Origin: a bacterium
GTDB taxonomy: Bacteria; SZUA-182; DTGQ01
Reading direction: 5' to 3'
NCBI GenBank assembly: GCA_040755755.1
Contig: JBFLZW010000012.1
Location: forward strand, 1 to 64,000
DNA length: 64,000 nt
The notes below the pieces were generated by a model. The model saw only the letters and a program-made list of their open reading frames with translations. It had not been told where the DNA came from and ran no database searches. Below, in pieces: positions 15,292 to 22,871 of this stretch. The translations under genes and the position numbers were made by a program. The stretch's first letter is position 1, and each line of letters starts with the position of its first letter.

Positions 15292-15321
15292 TTGACAATA
15301 CTAATTTATAAGTGTTATAAT
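15292..15321 (+). promoter_or_regulatory. strong sigma-70 promoter for the secreted-protein pair
   Basis: Perfect TTGACA (15292-15297) and TATAAT (15316-15321) boxes are 18 bp apart within an AT-rich region after hisD. It faces the two secreted-protein genes, with about 440 nt of leader. Confidence 0.75.
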
Positions 15322-15327
15322 TTATTT

Positions 15328-15768
15328 ACATCTCTCGGCAATATACGATATCTCTGCTTCGAAGTAGCCTGGATGGAATAAGCAGGGTATGAGAGAAAGT
15401 GTATTCTCAGTGATTTGGATACGGAAAATCAAAAACTCAGCATCAAGTTAGGTAATCATTTGCATATTATGAACAGATATGCACACTCTTTTTTCTTTGA
15501 TATAGGGGAAAATGGGAAATATCGGATAAAAGAGAAGGTGTGGGTAAAGGAGAGGGACGGAATTATTAAGAGAACAGGCAGGAAGTTAGGGTATCTTTCT
15601 ATTACCGGATCAAATGGCATCTGATTTGCTTATAATTCAATCCAAGGTGTAATTTATTTTTTCAGGGGGGTAGAGGTATAGCATTGATAAGCATAGCCTT
15701 TTTGGATGAAAAATCTTTCAGAAATTTAAGCGGTTTTTTTTGTGTTTGGCGAAAGGGGGTCCTCATTT
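15328..15768 (+). other. long leader region with no recognised RNA family
   Basis: The gap from hisD (15127) to the first secreted-protein gene (15769) is 642 bp and contains the promoter at 15292. Downstream, a 69-codon frame (15415-15624) starts at TTG without a ribosome site; it is rich in Lys and Gly and I do not recognise it. I looked for a cyclic-di-GMP riboswitch pattern and did not see one. A T-rich run (15728-15742) just upstream of the gene could contribute to attenuation, but I found no strong hairpin before it. Confidence 0.35.
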
Positions 15769-17229
15769 ATGGAATTTATTAAAAGCAGCAGGATAACCTG
15801 CCTTTTTCTCCTGGTAGGCATGATCTTTCTTTCAGCATCCGGCTGGGCTTTGGAGCCAACCGTCACCGATGTAACTACCCGGTCTTTCAGTGTAGTTTGG
15901 ACGGAAAGCACCGGCGGTTTAGGTAGTTGCAGCCTCCAGGTCAAAAAAAGCGGTGGCGGATTCGTGGACAGCAGTCAGATTCTTCTCGAATCTGATGAGG
16001 ATGCGCTGGCCCGCGGGGTGATAAAGTTTGAAGTCGTCGGATTGGATTACGGCGCTACCTATACCTATTCGGGAACCAGAAGAAATGGAAGTAGTTTTAA
16101 CGGTTCAAAATCAGTAACTACTGCTCTCTTTAAGGGACTGGTCTCGCTTGATCCGGAGGCCAACGATATTGTAACCAATGATATTTTTCATGTGGCTGTT
16201 TACAATGCCGATGGGAAAACACCGGCTCTGGGTGCTCTGGTGATGGGTGAAATTTATGCGGATGCAAGCTGCACGACCCTGAAAAGCGCTTACCCTCTGA
16301 CCGGCTGGGTTGGATCCGGCATGCCGGGAAATCCCCTGACTGCGGATTATGCGGGTAAGACATTCGATCCCAATAATGTTTCGTATAAAGAATATGCAGC
16401 CTTAAATTTGAACAACCTGTTTGCGGATGATCCGAAAACATCGGCAGTGGACCTCTTTCCCCTTCAGTTAACCGGCGATGATCCGGTTACGAGCACTGTA
16501 GTGGAAGGTGATTATATCAAGGTGACGGTGATTCCAGGCCTGACTGCCACAGCCGGAGATGCGGTACAGATCATGCCGGTTCCGGGCATCACCAGGGTGG
16601 GAACCCAGGAAATCAGCTCAGCCAAGGCAGCCGTGAAGGTCATTTTACAGGCTGGAATGAATACCTTCTCCTATCCGTTTGAAGTGCCTGCCGGCTATAC
16701 CATTAAAAAGCTGGTGGAAGCGATTTACGCAGCAGGAGGGAAAGTCAAGCAGGTCAAACGCTATGACAAGGGCAGTTGGCCGGTGGCAAGCGTTGTGTAT
16801 CTTTCCAGTGGACCCAAGATCAATCCTGCGGCGAGCGGGGAGGTTGCGATCATGCCTGGCGAGGGATATCTGGTCATTATGGATGGTACCGCCTTACCAC
16901 AAAATTTTTATATTAGCGGTTCTCCAACGCCGACCACAATCACTCTTCGTGGTGGCATGAATGTTGTTAATTTCACCCAGATTCCAAGCTTCTATAAAAT
17001 TGTCGACCTGGTCAAGGCAATTTCTGCAGCCGGAGGGAAGGTCAAGCAGATTAAACGCTATGATAAGGGCAGTTGGCCGGTGGCAAGTGTTGTTTATCTT
17101 TCCAGTGGCCCCAAGATTAACCCTGCGGCGAGCGGGGAGGCTCTCATTGAAAGAGGAAAAGCCTATTTAGTCATTATGGACTCAGCTACTCAAGGTACAT
17201 TAACAGTTGATCCGCTTGTAACCAAGTGA
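15769..17229 (+). CDS. secreted protein with N-terminal Fn3-like module and two C-terminal repeats
   Basis: A 486-aa exported protein of unknown function. The ATG at 15769 follows a GGGGGT ribosome site. The signal peptide has a hydrophobic core (CLFLLVGMIFLSASG) with likely cleavage after GWA. A fibronectin type III-like module (about 30-125, TTRSFSVVWTES) matches the N-terminus of the next gene product. A middle domain (about 130-280) follows. Two tandem units of 99 aa end the protein, each with GGKVKQ(V/I)KRYDKGSWPVASV and YLVIMD. I see no anchor or sorting signal. Its place before a 1700-aa relative suggests both act at the cell surface. Confidence 0.75.
   Translation: MEFIKSSRITCLFLLVGMIFLSASGWALEPTVTDVTTRSFSVVWTESTGGLGSCSLQVKKSGGGFVDSSQILLESDEDALARGVIKFEVVGLDYGATYTYSGTRRNGSSFNGSKSVTTALFKGLVSLDPEANDIVTNDIFHVAVYNADGKTPALGALVMGEIYADASCTTLKSAYPLTGWVGSGMPGNPLTADYAGKTFDPNNVSYKEYAALNLNNLFADDPKTSAVDLFPLQLTGDDPVTSTVVEGDYIKVTVIPGLTATAGDAVQIMPVPGITRVGTQEISSAKAAVKVILQAGMNTFSYPFEVPAGYTIKKLVEAIYAAGGKVKQVKRYDKGSWPVASVVYLSSGPKINPAASGEVAIMPGEGYLVIMDGTALPQNFYISGSPTPTTITLRGGMNVVNFTQIPSFYKIVDLVKAISAAGGKVKQIKRYDKGSWPVASVVYLSSGPKINPAASGEALIERGKAYLVIMDSATQGTLTVDPLVTK
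16729..17140 (+). repeat. tandem internal duplication in the secreted protein
   Basis: The 115-bp cores at 16729-16843 and 17026-17140 are nearly identical and 297 bp apart (99 codons), whereas the rest of each unit has diverged. This suggests recent gene conversion of the core or strong constraint on it. Confidence 0.85.
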
Positions 17230-17294
17230 AAAAAAAGAGAAGATTGGACTTTGCATAATACTAAAGATGTATATAGCGAAAGGAGGAGCTTGAC

Positions 17295-20200
17295 ATGCCC
17301 AAGTTTTTAAAACGGTTTTTATTGACTTCCTTATCCATTGGGTTTTTTAGCCTTTTCTGGTTAATAGCACCTCAGTTTGCCGGTGCATTTTCCATAAACG
17401 GAGATGCTGTTACCTATGATGTAACCTTTAGTTCTTTTTGTGTGGTTTGGGAAGGCAAAATTGACGGAACGATATCGTCCTATGAAGTCATAGTTTATAA
17501 CGATCAGGCTGGAAGCAGCCGAAGTGAAGGTTTCGTGTCGAATCCGATCGGTCTGAAAGATAACGGAGTTATGGCGGTTCAGGTGACCGGACTGGCCGCT
17601 CAACAGACATACTACTACCAGATTAAGGTTGTGGAAAATGGCACTGAGTATTACTATCCCTCCACGCCGCCCTTGAAAGAAGTTACAACCCAGTTTGATG
17701 AAGGAGCAGCAGGTAATACCCCTCCTCCCAACCCTTCAGTAATTTTTCGCGTATATTTAGGGGACGGAGCGACCCCGGCTGGAGGAGCTTTTGTTTATAT
17801 GGAAGTGGCTGGCGCAAGCTACCCCGTTGCCGGCAGTACGGATTCCGGTTGGGTTGATGCTGAATATGGCGATGGAACGATTAGCCTGGGTGGTGGAACA
17901 CTTTTCAGTCAAAGTACCAAGAAATATTTAACCCTGAATGGTGGTGAATCCATTACTGTCAAGTGCCTGGGTGGAAGTTATGGCAGCAAGGCAGCAACAA
18001 TCGCAAGCTTTGATCCCAGCCTGATGTGTCAGGTTGGATTTGAATGTGTCGATGAATATGCAAACAAGATCGTATTAGCCCTCAATTCACCACCGAAGAT
18101 CGACTCTCTTGCCAAAGCTTCCGGCTCTGATATCCGAGAGGCTAATGGTAAATATGTGATTAAACCCGGCCAGCAGTTTACCCTGGATGTTTCAGGCTCC
18201 GATCCGGATGAGGGAGAGAGCATAAGCTCATGGGCCCTGAAAAATGCTCCGGATAACAATATGGTAATTACCAGAGATGCAGGAGATTCAAATAAGGCCA
18301 AAATAACCTGGAGCCCGGTAAGCAGTACTCTCGGTGAAACTACGGTCACTATCGAAGCCAGCAACGACAAGACCGGGTCAAGAACCTTCATCGTTCTGGT
18401 TACCGATGGAAAACCCAGCGCCCCGACGTCGGTTTCCGTGGCACCGGCCAGTCCCAAGACCGCTGATGACCTTACCTGTACGGTTACCGGCGGCGTCGAT
18501 CCTCTTGGAGACAATGTAACTTACGTTTACACCTGGTCGAAAAATGGATCAGTACAGAGTGATCTTACCGGAAGCAGCGTACCAAGCAGCCGCACCGCCA
18601 AGGGAGAGACCTGGTCCTGTTCGGTTACAGTCAAAGATACTCCCTTTGATGGCGAGAGTGCACCCAAGGCTTCAAATACGGTAACTATCGCCAACACCCC
18701 GGCCACAGGGACTCCGAGCGTGAGCATCAGTCCTGCCAATCCGGCCGCAGGTACCAACCTGGTTGCTACCGTGAGCACCACAGGATGCACGGATGCGGAT
18801 GGCGACACTTTGGGTTATAGCCTTAAGTGGTTTAAAAATGGTCAGGAAACCAGTAACACTGATCTGACGCTGCCCGGCAGTCAGACCAGGAAGGGCGAGA
18901 GCTGGGTATGCAAAGCCACCCTGACTGAAGGTGGTGTCAGCACCAGTAACATCGGTACATCCAATTCCCTGACTATCGCCAACACGCCGCCTTCTGCTCC
19001 CGGCAACATTTCGATAGAGAAAGTTGCCAATGGCATCAAGTGTACTGTGGGACAGCAGGCCACTGATTCTGATACCAATGACACGGTACAATATATCTAT
19101 AAATGGATATGCACTATAAATGGCGCTATTCAGCCTGCGGTGACCCAGGGGCCTACTGCCGAGCGCAACCAGATATTATCTTCTGGATTGGCCAAGAATC
19201 AGACCTGGCACTGTGAGGTTGCTGCTACTGATGGTACGGCCACAACGGATTATGTGCGAAGCCCTGCTTCCCAGGATTATACCATTGTCAATAATCCACC
19301 GACCAAGCCGGTCGCTTCGACGACTCCTGCCAGCCCTTACAGGGACGAGTCCCTGGTGTGCGCTGTGACCACCCAAAGCACCGATCCGGACGGCGATACG
19401 GTACGCTACACCTATGAATGGTTCAAGGATGGACAGGCAATCCCCGGCAGCAGTACGACGAATACCTCCGCACTCAGCTCTACGCTGCCTTCAAGCGCAG
19501 GCCTGGTGCAGGGATCTCAGTACACCTGCAAGGTTACTCCTTCCGATGGACAGACCGATGGACCGGCCCATACGACAGCAGCCGTAACTATTGGCAACCG
19601 TCCTCCTACCATTGTCATTAAAAGGGGCGGGCAGACAATCGCGGCAGATGTGGTCAGCGTTAATGAAGCCGAGCCTGTTACCCTTGAAATCGTTGGCAGT
19701 GATGCGGATAATAACGGGTTGACCTGCTCCGCAATCACGCTCCCGGATAGTTCAGCTACCTTTGCCAACAATATCTTAAGCTGGACTCCTGCGGTAGGGG
19801 CCTCGGGTGTAAACCAGGGCATGTATCCGGCTACTTTTAAGGTTGAGGAAACCGATGGTAAACCGACGAACCTGTCTGTTACCAAGAGCATCCAGATTCA
19901 GGTAATTTATCCTTCCCAAATGGTCGAAGACTTTGAGTATTTAGCGAGCAGTCCAACGCCGGAGCAGAATGGATGGTTCCGCCTGCAAGGCCAGGGGCAG
20001 ATGAGCGTGTTAGAGGAAGCACTTGATGACAAGACCAATCACTACCTGAAGACGGTTACCTCGCATGCGGATCCTAACTCCATAACAGCTACAGCGCAAC
20101 TTCAATATATTGTTACCAAGTGGCTCAGCAATTTTCTCGATACCCAGGACTTTCCTGAACTGCAATTCAAGATTGCAGACCGCAACACCTATTATGTAGA

Positions 20201-22397
20201 GGTATGTATTCATGCAATCGATAACAGCGGGCAGGGCAGGAATTACTTCCTGCGCTACATTCCTCAGGATCCAGTGAACAATAAGGAATTTGAAGTCAAG
20301 GGACTCTATATCACCTGGTCCATCGGCAGGCAATATATCAATCCAGATGGGGTTCAGATTACCCGGAATATGGAAAAAGACCTTAACCTGGCCATTGCTG
20401 CCACGCAGCAGGAGCAGGTCCACTATGATTACCTGATGGGTATTGTTCTGCGTGGGGATATCGACTATTTAGACGATATTTCCGTGGCTAAAGGGACTCC
20501 TGATTTCACACCTCCCAAGGATGTTCAAAACCTGACCGCTATTGCCAAAGATAAGGCGGTTGTCCTCTCCTGGACTATCCCCGCTGATCAGACGAGCGAT
20601 ACCATAGGCTACCTGATTGAGACCGCAGATGCTCCAAGCAAGGTTGTTAAGGTACCATCTCCGGCCACATCCTATACGATTACCGGATTAACCAATGGCA
20701 AAAATTACACATTCACGGTTAAAGCCTATGACAATGCCCCGGTAAAGGACAAAACCGGCAAGGAAATAATCGGTAACCTCAGCAGCGGTGTTTCCACTTC
20801 CATTCAGCCTCAGAGGGATACTATTGCTCCGGTTTGGCCGGCCAATGCCCTTACCGCTACATCACAGAATAAGGCGGTTCTGTTGAGCTGGACTCGTCCG
20901 AGCGATGCTGATCTGGATTTCTTTGAGATTTTCCAGGATGGGAGCTCCATCAAGGTAGTGGATAAAACCGTTACCAGCTACCGGGTCGCTAATCTGGAGA
21001 ATGATAGGCCCTACAGCTTTACCGTAAAGGCATATGACAATGCAACACCTTCAAATGCCTCAACGGTTTCAGCCACAGCAATTCCAGCACCACCGATCGA
21101 GATCATGGTGGATGGTTTTGATTATTCCGGTACAGAGAAACCAACGGACCACGGCTGGTTCCGTTTGCAGGGTACCGGCAGTATCAACCGTGTAACTCAA
21201 GGTGGAGACAGCTATATGAACCTGGCCACAACGGCCAGCAATAAGCTGAACTTCATCGTTACCAAGTGGATGGATAATCCCGAGGAATGCAACAATCCGG
21301 AGCTTCATTTCGACCTGAGGTCCAGCGGGCAGTGCCGTGTCGAATTTTACATCCTGGCAAGCGATAATAATAAATATTTTCTGAGTTACCAGCCGGATGT
21401 CACGAAGGAGTCTGATTATTGTGAGACTCCGGATAAGGTTCGACAAGGGCTCTATATTACTCACTATCTTGGATGGAAGGGGAGAAATGCAAATAGTGAC
21501 TGGCGCACCATAATCAGGAACCTGAGCAAGGATATTCAGGATGCCCAGGGCCTTGAGAATGTAACCTTTAAGTATCTTCTGGGAATCATCATCCGGGGTG
21601 AATGTGATATCAACAATATCCGGTTGGAAAAAGCCATTCCTGATGTCGATAATCTGATAGCCAGGCCGGACAGCGGTTCGGTAGAGTTGAGCTGGAGCAG
21701 TCAGAACCCGGACGAAGTTAAAGAATTCCATCTCTCTGTTGATGGAGGGGCAGTGGTTGTTATTCCGAATCAACCTAATGCTGGTACAACCAACGAGTAC
21801 AGTTACCAGGCAACTGGCTTGACTAATGGCATTCCCTCAACCTTCACCCTTACCCAGGTCATGGACGATGGGCTGGAAAGCAACGGAGTTGAAATTTCAG
21901 CCGTACCACGGCAGTTCACCTATCATGACGAGTGCAACAATGTGAATAGCTGGGATGACAATGTCGCTGAACTGGGAGATATCGCCACGATCTATGATCC
22001 CCAGGTTCATAGTGATGTTATCTCTATTGTTCCAAACGCCGATTTGGCTTCTCCTGCCCGCTACATGGCGACAACAAGTATTGATACTGCAGGCAAGATT
22101 GTAACTTTGCGTGTCAAGTCTGATGGCGAGTTTATACTCTGGTTCAAAGTAAGGGATAGTTTCTACGTTGAGTATAACTTCCTCTATGCTACCGGCGGAG
22201 CAGTAAATACCGGAGCTTCAATTGGAACCTGGGCTTATAGTTATCTGGGCCAATCCTACACGGATGGCAAATGGCATACGCTGACATTGAATCTGGAAGA
22301 CCTCATGCAGGTATACTACGGCGATGTTGAGCTCACCGGTATTGACGGTGTGGTCATCGGCGGGAATGTTTTGATCGATGATATAATGGTTTATTAA
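17295..22397 (+). CDS. giant secreted Ig/Fn3-repeat surface protein
   Basis: A 1700-aa exported protein starting at an ATG after AGGAGG. A signal peptide (core LLTSLSIGFFSLFWLIA, cleavage near AGA) is followed by an Fn3-like module shared with the upstream gene and a second shared module (about 148-255). Next are an Ig/cadherin-like domain (262-373), four tandem Ig-like repeats of about 100 aa (375-775), mostly with a Cys pair as in LTCTV...WSCSV, and another Ig-like unit (775-870). Three beta-rich modules start near 876, 1270 and 1539; the first two share GWFRLQG. Fn3 domains lie near 1072, 1177 and 1450. No transmembrane anchor is visible. Adhesion or matrix binding is inference. Confidence 0.8.
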   Translation: MPKFLKRFLLTSLSIGFFSLFWLIAPQFAGAFSINGDAVTYDVTFSSFCVVWEGKIDGTISSYEVIVYNDQAGSSRSEGFVSNPIGLKDNGVMAVQVTGLAAQQTYYYQIKVVENGTEYYYPSTPPLKEVTTQFDEGAAGNTPPPNPSVIFRVYLGDGATPAGGAFVYMEVAGASYPVAGSTDSGWVDAEYGDGTISLGGGTLFSQSTKKYLTLNGGESITVKCLGGSYGSKAATIASFDPSLMCQVGFECVDEYANKIVLALNSPPKIDSLAKASGSDIREANGKYVIKPGQQFTLDVSGSDPDEGESISSWALKNAPDNNMVITRDAGDSNKAKITWSPVSSTLGETTVTIEASNDKTGSRTFIVLVTDGKPSAPTSVSVAPASPKTADDLTCTVTGGVDPLGDNVTYVYTWSKNGSVQSDLTGSSVPSSRTAKGETWSCSVTVKDTPFDGESAPKASNTVTIANTPATGTPSVSISPANPAAGTNLVATVSTTGCTDADGDTLGYSLKWFKNGQETSNTDLTLPGSQTRKGESWVCKATLTEGGVSTSNIGTSNSLTIANTPPSAPGNISIEKVANGIKCTVGQQATDSDTNDTVQYIYKWICTINGAIQPAVTQGPTAERNQILSSGLAKNQTWHCEVAATDGTATTDYVRSPASQDYTIVNNPPTKPVASTTPASPYRDESLVCAVTTQSTDPDGDTVRYTYEWFKDGQAIPGSSTTNTSALSSTLPSSAGLVQGSQYTCKVTPSDGQTDGPAHTTAAVTIGNRPPTIVIKRGGQTIAADVVSVNEAEPVTLEIVGSDADNNGLTCSAITLPDSSATFANNILSWTPAVGASGVNQGMYPATFKVEETDGKPTNLSVTKSIQIQVIYPSQMVEDFEYLASSPTPEQNGWFRLQGQGQMSVLEEALDDKTNHYLKTVTSHADPNSITATAQLQYIVTKWLSNFLDTQDFPELQFKIADRNTYYVEVCIHAIDNSGQGRNYFLRYIPQDPVNNKEFEVKGLYITWSIGRQYINPDGVQITRNMEKDLNLAIAATQQEQVHYDYLMGIVLRGDIDYLDDISVAKGTPDFTPPKDVQNLTAIAKDKAVVLSWTIPADQTSDTIGYLIETADAPSKVVKVPSPATSYTITGLTNGKNYTFTVKAYDNAPVKDKTGKEIIGNLSSGVSTSIQPQRDTIAPVWPANALTATSQNKAVLLSWTRPSDADLDFFEIFQDGSSIKVVDKTVTSYRVANLENDRPYSFTVKAYDNATPSNASTVSATAIPAPPIEIMVDGFDYSGTEKPTDHGWFRLQGTGSINRVTQGGDSYMNLATTASNKLNFIVTKWMDNPEECNNPELHFDLRSSGQCRVEFYILASDNNKYFLSYQPDVTKESDYCETPDKVRQGLYITHYLGWKGRNANSDWRTIIRNLSKDIQDAQGLENVTFKYLLGIIIRGECDINNIRLEKAIPDVDNLIARPDSGSVELSWSSQNPDEVKEFHLSVDGGAVVVIPNQPNAGTTNEYSYQATGLTNGIPSTFTLTQVMDDGLESNGVEISAVPRQFTYHDECNNVNSWDDNVAELGDIATIYDPQVHSDVISIVPNADLASPARYMATTSIDTAGKIVTLRVKSDGEFILWFKVRDSFYVEYNFLYATGGAVNTGASIGTWAYSYLGQSYTDGKWHTLTLNLEDLMQVYYGDVELTGIDGVVIGGNVLIDDIMVY

Positions 22398-22441
22398 TAA
22401 CGCCAATAGATAGTAATAAGCCAGGCTTACGCTTGCTGTTG

Positions 22442-22490
22442 AAGGGGTGATAAGGTCAAATGACCTTATCACCCCTTTTCATTTTTTTAT
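22442..22490 (+). terminator. rho-independent terminator after the surface protein
   Basis: AAGGGGTGATAAGGTCA (22442-22458) and its perfect 17-nt complement (22461-22477) form a strong hairpin, followed by TTTTCATTTTTTTATTTT. It lies 45 bp after the surface-protein stop codon. Confidence 0.92.
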
Positions 22491-22686: not shown

Positions 22687-22871
22687 ATCGCTCATATATG
22701 GTAGCCATCACACTGTTTGGATCTGATGCCTTTAGCGAAGTGAAAATCCTATAGAGGGGATTTCCCGCAGAGACGCAGAGGCGCAGAGGTAAAAAAGACA
22801 AATTATTTTCTCTGCGCCTCTGCGTCTCTGCGGGAGAAATATTACTGTGTTGTCTTACCAATATGAGCGAT
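22687..22871. mobile_element. MITE-like element, copy 2
   Basis: A 185-bp noncoding element with perfect 11-bp terminal inverted repeats, ATCGCTCATAT (22687-22697) and ATATGAGCGAT (22861-22871), and weaker matching further in. CCCA flanks both ends (22683-22686 and 22872-22875) as a likely 4-bp target duplication. A nested hairpin has 25-bp perfect arms (22764-22788 and 22810-22834) built on CCCGCAGAGACGCAGAGG. It shares ends and hairpin core with copy 1. The right end contains an ATG (22863) in frame with the antitoxin gene. Confidence 0.78.

Follow-up and report, generated by a model that had tools for sequence, protein, structure and literature searches.

A putative sigma54-driven operon for two exported modular proteins

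Among the systems consulted, the nearest precedent in function for the locus reported here is that of the PEP-CTERM matrix proteins, among them an exported, RpoN-dependent protein (PepA of Aquincola tertiaricarbonis) that is involved in floc formation (PMC9850573). As in that system, a sigma54-type (-24/-12) promoter precedes an exported nonenzymatic protein, and two PrsR-class response regulators score above cutoff in the genome under study, as in RpoN-dependent PEP-CTERM systems. However, the two proteins encoded here, which we call P1 and P2, have other domains, and the role in flocs belongs to the precedent. A PEP motif followed by a transmembrane helix and a basic tail is absent from both (P1 ends in ...DPLVTK and P2 in ...DDIMVY), and no NCBIfam model of that kind matches them. 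Because this tail is missing, P1 and P2 are not PEP-CTERM members, and the precedent may be taken as an analogy in regulation and location.

P2 also resembles the Fn3/Ig multidomain surface proteins of bacteria, in that it passes the Pfam cutoffs for fn3 and Ig_2, but it differs from them in carrying three additional beta-modules for which Pfam holds no model and in having no anchor. A third comparison is with a cohesin-dockerin assembly encoded in the same genome (G000:C67) and in that of a relative (G001:C122), wherein one dockerin protein carries the N-terminal head of P1. That assembly includes MopE-type metal-binding motifs, HYR domains, and a beta-helix protein; Pfam searches find neither a cohesin nor a dockerin domain in P1 or P2.

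The locus lies in a 64,000-nt window, by which we mean the whole stretch of DNA that was analyzed. The genome containing it is designated G000; G001 is from the same genus, and G002 is from another genus of the same family. We propose, with middling confidence, that P1 and P2 constitute a two-gene, sigma54-driven operon for exported, nonenzymatic proteins that serve structural or adhesive purposes at the cell surface or in an extracellular matrix. A surface or matrix role for such a coexpressed exported pair would be consistent with all of our findings.

The gene for P1 (15769 to 17229, plus strand) encodes 486 amino acids, and that for P2 (17295 to 22397, same strand) encodes 1700. They are separated by 65 nt that include no terminator, and each is preceded by a good Shine-Dalgarno sequence, namely GAAAGGGGG at 15751 to 15759 for P1, which is conserved in G001, and AAGGAGGAG at 17280 to 17288 for P2. 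An intrinsic terminator with a 17-bp stem and a T-run (22441 to 22478, plus strand) follows P2. Thus, an earlier note on this DNA, which described two adjacent exported proteins with a strong terminator behind them, was right as to the open reading frames, their lengths and coordinates, and the terminator. Both N-termini read as Sec-type signal peptides without a lipobox, and neither sequence has a C-terminal anchor or sorting tail. P1 and P2 are real proteins under purifying selection, because their dN/dS values relative to the nearest relative, G001, are 0.096 and 0.107, respectively.

The pair is retained as a unit in related genomes. P1 and P2 are 84% and 77% identical to their G001 counterparts and approximately 52% and 41% identical to those of G002, with the pair in the same order directly behind hisD in both relatives and the two genes adjacent across two genera at a distance of no more than 65 nt. 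The genes downstream of the pair vary among the three genomes. As the earlier note observed, no sorting or secretion-system gene adjoins the pair in the window, although the next gene downstream, which is convergent, encodes a SurA-like PPIase. A 33-nt, near-perfect inverted repeat (CGCAGAGACGCAGAGGCGCAGAGG, 22763 to 22835) of REP/MITE-like character also lies 3′ of the operon. In two further genomes the evidence is fragmentary: the P2 homolog of G004 sits at a contig edge, and G003 has a full-length P1 homolog near a contig end. A full-length P2 was not found in the 91%-complete G003 assembly, which has only a protein resembling beta-module c of P2, encoded elsewhere. Contig edges may account for some of these absences. 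A search for plasmid-borne relatives found none.

Both proteins begin with the same head, as had been proposed from an N-terminal Fn3-like module and a second module that they have in common. In P1 this head comprises an Fn3-like domain (residues 28 to 118) and a second module (M2, residues 119 to 262), encoded by 15850 to 16554 on the plus strand; the homologous P2 head is encoded by 17391 to 18080 on the same strand. The two heads are 29.5% identical over 176 amino acids by BLASTP (E=1e-8), and a P1-family profile finds the P2 N-terminus with E=2.5e-14 in G000 and 2.6e-15 in G001. The fn3 match of P1 (12.8 bits) is below the Pfam cutoff of 25, the predicted P1 structure (pLDDT 61) matches only Fn3 and Ig folds, and P1 has no sequence relatives in the PDB. 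A profile search for recurrence of the head, as the earlier note had suggested, locates it also on the dockerin protein at G000:C67. It directly follows the signal peptide in that protein, in P1 and P2, and in proteins at loci L040, L041, L062, and L071. The products of the conserved cohesin-dockerin cluster (L031, G000:C67:28000-42000; L032, G001:C122) are a cohesin/HYR protein of 1079 aa, a dockerin protein of the beta-helix/HYR kind, and a 511-aa protein in which a P1-type head is combined with MopE-type metal-binding motifs and an end that resembles a dockerin.

The C-terminal part of P1 consists of two tandem repeats of a GWN...GYW type, R1 and R2 (16621 to 17202, plus strand). By profile, these match a widespread tandem repeat, with E-values per genome down to 9e-22, that has no name and no match in Pfam or NCBIfam. 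Repeat proteins from the phylum of L041, a Deltaproteobacteria metagenome-assembled genome, and from elsewhere likewise carry a tandem pair at the C-terminus. Elsewhere the repeat occurs on subtilases and other secreted proteins, whereas in P1 it stands behind the Fn3+M2 head. The starts of R1 and R2 are conserved by position. Their cores (16695 to 17140) are nearly identical to each other within each genome but strongly different between genera, a homogenization that we infer to be the mark of gene conversion. The pattern also suggests that the two cores bind the same thing.

The earlier note cast P1 as a partner or cap for P2. Wherever both have been seen together they are adjacent, but the idea is weakened by genes found outside the class. 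Full-length P1-type genes occur at L041 and on L040, a contig binned as Bathyarchaeota, and the gene behind each of them encodes an exported protein other than P2, which at L041 has PKD domains and, by eye, a dockerin-like end. Because these genes have other exported neighbors, the P1 type is not bound to P2. Relatives that keep one gene without the other, which were to count against the partnership, are also seen in part, in that G003 has P1 and no full-length P2 was found there. The P1-type and GWN...GYW proteins encoded on the L040 contig are of a kind typical of bacteria, and the contig is probably a misbinned bacterial one.

These observations bear on a first alternative, in which the two are surface proteins that function independently of each other and have in common no more than a promoter and a head used as a handle for export or display. 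That the head immediately follows the signal peptide in proteins of diverse kinds, and that P1-type genes have varied neighbors, is what this reading would predict, but the tight adjacency of the pair in two genera is not, and we consider it not very likely. Under the operon model that we prefer, P1 would be the shorter coexpressed partner of P2, with the same head and two repeats of a ligand-binding type, and it might contact P2.

Beyond its head, P2 is an array of recognizable and unnamed domains (all plus strand). Six Ig-like domains (18096 to 19919), identified by Pfam search and from the sequence with some parts assigned by eye, are ordered as one of Big_9/He_PIG type, four that are Ig_2-like, and another of Big_9/He_PIG type. 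These are followed by beta-module a (19920 to 20483), two fn3 domains (20484 to 21080), beta-module b (21081 to 21638), a third fn3 domain (21639 to 21905), and beta-module c (21906 to 22394), a distant relative of a and b that ends the protein. Pfam matches Ig_2 with E=1e-8 and 35.6 bits (cutoff 27) and the three fn3 domains with E=1.3e-27 and 96 bits (cutoff 25), and fn3 accounts for the only sequence relatives of P2 in the PDB. Four Ig-like repeats, mostly with paired cysteines, had been reported previously, and the pairing is as expected in three of them. The three beta-modules had been called related, which is clearly so for a and b (81 to 101 bits); the relationship of c is weak (up to 13.5 bits; HHalign E=1e-5 for b and c). 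No Pfam family matches the beta-modules above its cutoff, and neither Pfam nor NCBIfam reveals an enzymatic or catalytic domain in P1 or P2. The description of the pair as unrecognized therefore holds only in part, since the fn3, Ig_2, and Big_9 domains have names and the P1 repeats, for all that they lack one, are widely distributed; the beta-modules are covered by no domain model. A structural model of the C-terminal part of P2, in which the third fn3 domain is the best-modeled portion, is too weak to name a fold (pLDDT 48), and the poor structure prediction for both proteins probably reflects a lack of alignment depth.

A second alternative is that the beta-modules are carbohydrate-binding domains and that the pair holds extracellular glycans for hydrolases, in parallel with the cohesin-dockerin cluster of G000. 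This would fit subthreshold matches to Glce_b_sandwich (E=0.0024) and to the xyloglucan-binding SGBP_B (0.08), structural matches to glucuronyl C5-epimerase and glucanase, and the presence of the Fn3+M2 head in a dockerin protein whose neighbor is a cohesin protein. However, the structural matches derive from the low-confidence model, no CBM family scores above threshold, no hydrolase or transporter gene is nearby, and P1 and P2 have neither a dockerin nor a cohesin. We judge this alternative unlikely; with its weak hints, glycan binding may stand as a rival to the model that we favor or as a refinement of it. In that model, P2 would be a long rod in which Ig and Fn3 spacers present three beta-sandwich-like modules that probably bind glycan or protein.

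Two promoters precede the operon. The first is of the sigma70 type (TTGACA-18-TATAAT, 15292 to 15321, plus strand), matches the consensus at 12 of 12 positions, and is conserved in G001 and, as TTGACT with a spacing of 17, in G002. The second, within the 440-nt leader, agrees perfectly with the consensus of a sigma54 (RpoN) -24/-12 promoter (TGGCATCTGATTTGCTT, 15615 to 15631, plus strand); its GG and GC are correctly spaced, and its sequence is of the TGGCAC-N5-TTGCW type. This box is exact in G000, G001, and G002, at -154, -190, and -155 from the ATG, respectively, within a leader of which a large part has diverged. Counts of the motif TGGCAY-N5-TTGCTT in these genomes are 21, 20, and 8, compared with 2, 0, and 0 for a reversed control, an approximately 20-fold excess genome-wide, and rpoN is present in all five genomes tested, including that of the window. 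Thus, the single strong promoter described in the earlier note is real and conserved, but the description was incomplete, and sigma54 apparently switches on the operon.

Approximately 130 nt upstream of the -24 element lies a conserved 25-nt island (TTTGCATATTATGAACAGATATGCA, 15459 to 15483, plus strand), which is a candidate activator site. It is present once per genome in G000, G001, and G002, and its reversed control is absent. The island is not a regulon-wide operator, as there is one copy per genome at three or fewer mismatches, and a leader peptide beginning within it can be set aside since, by eye, the reading frame is lost in G001. No riboswitch or structured RNA is recognized in the leader, wherein Rfam gives no match at the gathering score and the matches at E≤5 do not exceed chance.

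In the mechanism that we envision, the sigma54 promoter approximately 150 nt upstream of P1 would start transcription when activated by one of many NtrC-type enhancer-binding proteins, the sigma70-type promoter farther upstream would provide a second start, and Sec would carry both proteins out of the cytoplasm. NtrC-type regulators are abundant in G000, with 92 matches to the PrsR model when receivers and fragments are included; such a count, at about 90, represents a very large repertoire of sigma54 activators. That transcription of the operon depends solely on the sigma70-type promoter, with the leader a regulatory RNA and the sigma54 box a coincidence, is very improbable, for although the sigma70-type boxes are likewise conserved in both relatives, the leader lacks an Rfam match, the sigma54 box has persisted intact within largely diverged sequence, and its motif is enriched genome-wide.

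The beta-modules link P2 to a larger set of proteins. A profile built from modules a and b of P2 and the module of a sigma54-linked gene, L102, gives 18 matches in G000, is matched also in G001 to G004, and has no match in G005 to G008 or G290. The family is thus seen, as judged from these searches, only in the order of the window's genome. Because L102 is itself in the profile, a check with P2 modules only was needed; module b alone, searched against a 13-sequence set, finds L141, L171, and L140 at 21 to 23 bits and others more weakly, and the more distant members are linked to P2 through L102 and L171. G000 holds approximately 11 further exported beta-module proteins (paralogs L162 to L171) of 556 to 792 aa, which have an F[EQ]YW motif close to the N-terminus. 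All 13 family members examined terminate exactly in PWW-x plus a hydrophobic or aromatic residue (PWWSY, PWWGY, PWWAI, and so on). P2 shares the beta-module with this FEYW...PWW-x family but is not a full member, because its C-terminus is not PWW-x.

Of 12 module operons, 6, that of the window included, have within 400 nt upstream a sigma54 site that departs from the motif at no more than one position. Chance would give 1.3% per operon, or approximately 0.15 of 12 (P ~3e-9), for operons that were picked for carrying the module and in a test made after the pattern had been seen. An orthologous single-module gene retains its sigma54 box in three genomes. Further sigma54 sites stand before genes for a type IV pilin, for response regulators, and for exported proteins rich in proline. 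The P1-P2 operon would be one branch of an order-restricted regulon of exported beta-module proteins that includes the pilin. A bolder proposal, which we hold to be distinctly doubtful, is that one beta-module family supplies the parts of an extracellular assembly made by an undescribed sigma54 regulon specific to the order, with the invariant PWW-x tail and the Fn3+M2 head as handles for sorting or assembly and P1-P2 as its largest structural unit.

An orphan pair of surface type would in this way be tied to a specific transcription system, and the regulon is open to bioinformatic tests across the order, and to heterologous expression, without a cultured host. The beta-module family is unnamed in every domain library searched, and both it and the GWN...GYW repeat are common enough to merit named domain models. 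At L168 (G000:C33:74000-79500), a FEYW...PWW paralog has as its neighbor a type IV pilin gene whose sigma54 site has one mismatch. Several of the FEYW/PWW paralogs (L162 to L171) are preceded by genes for short exported proteins with a conserved motif of the H-I-G-I-C-E-F-L type.
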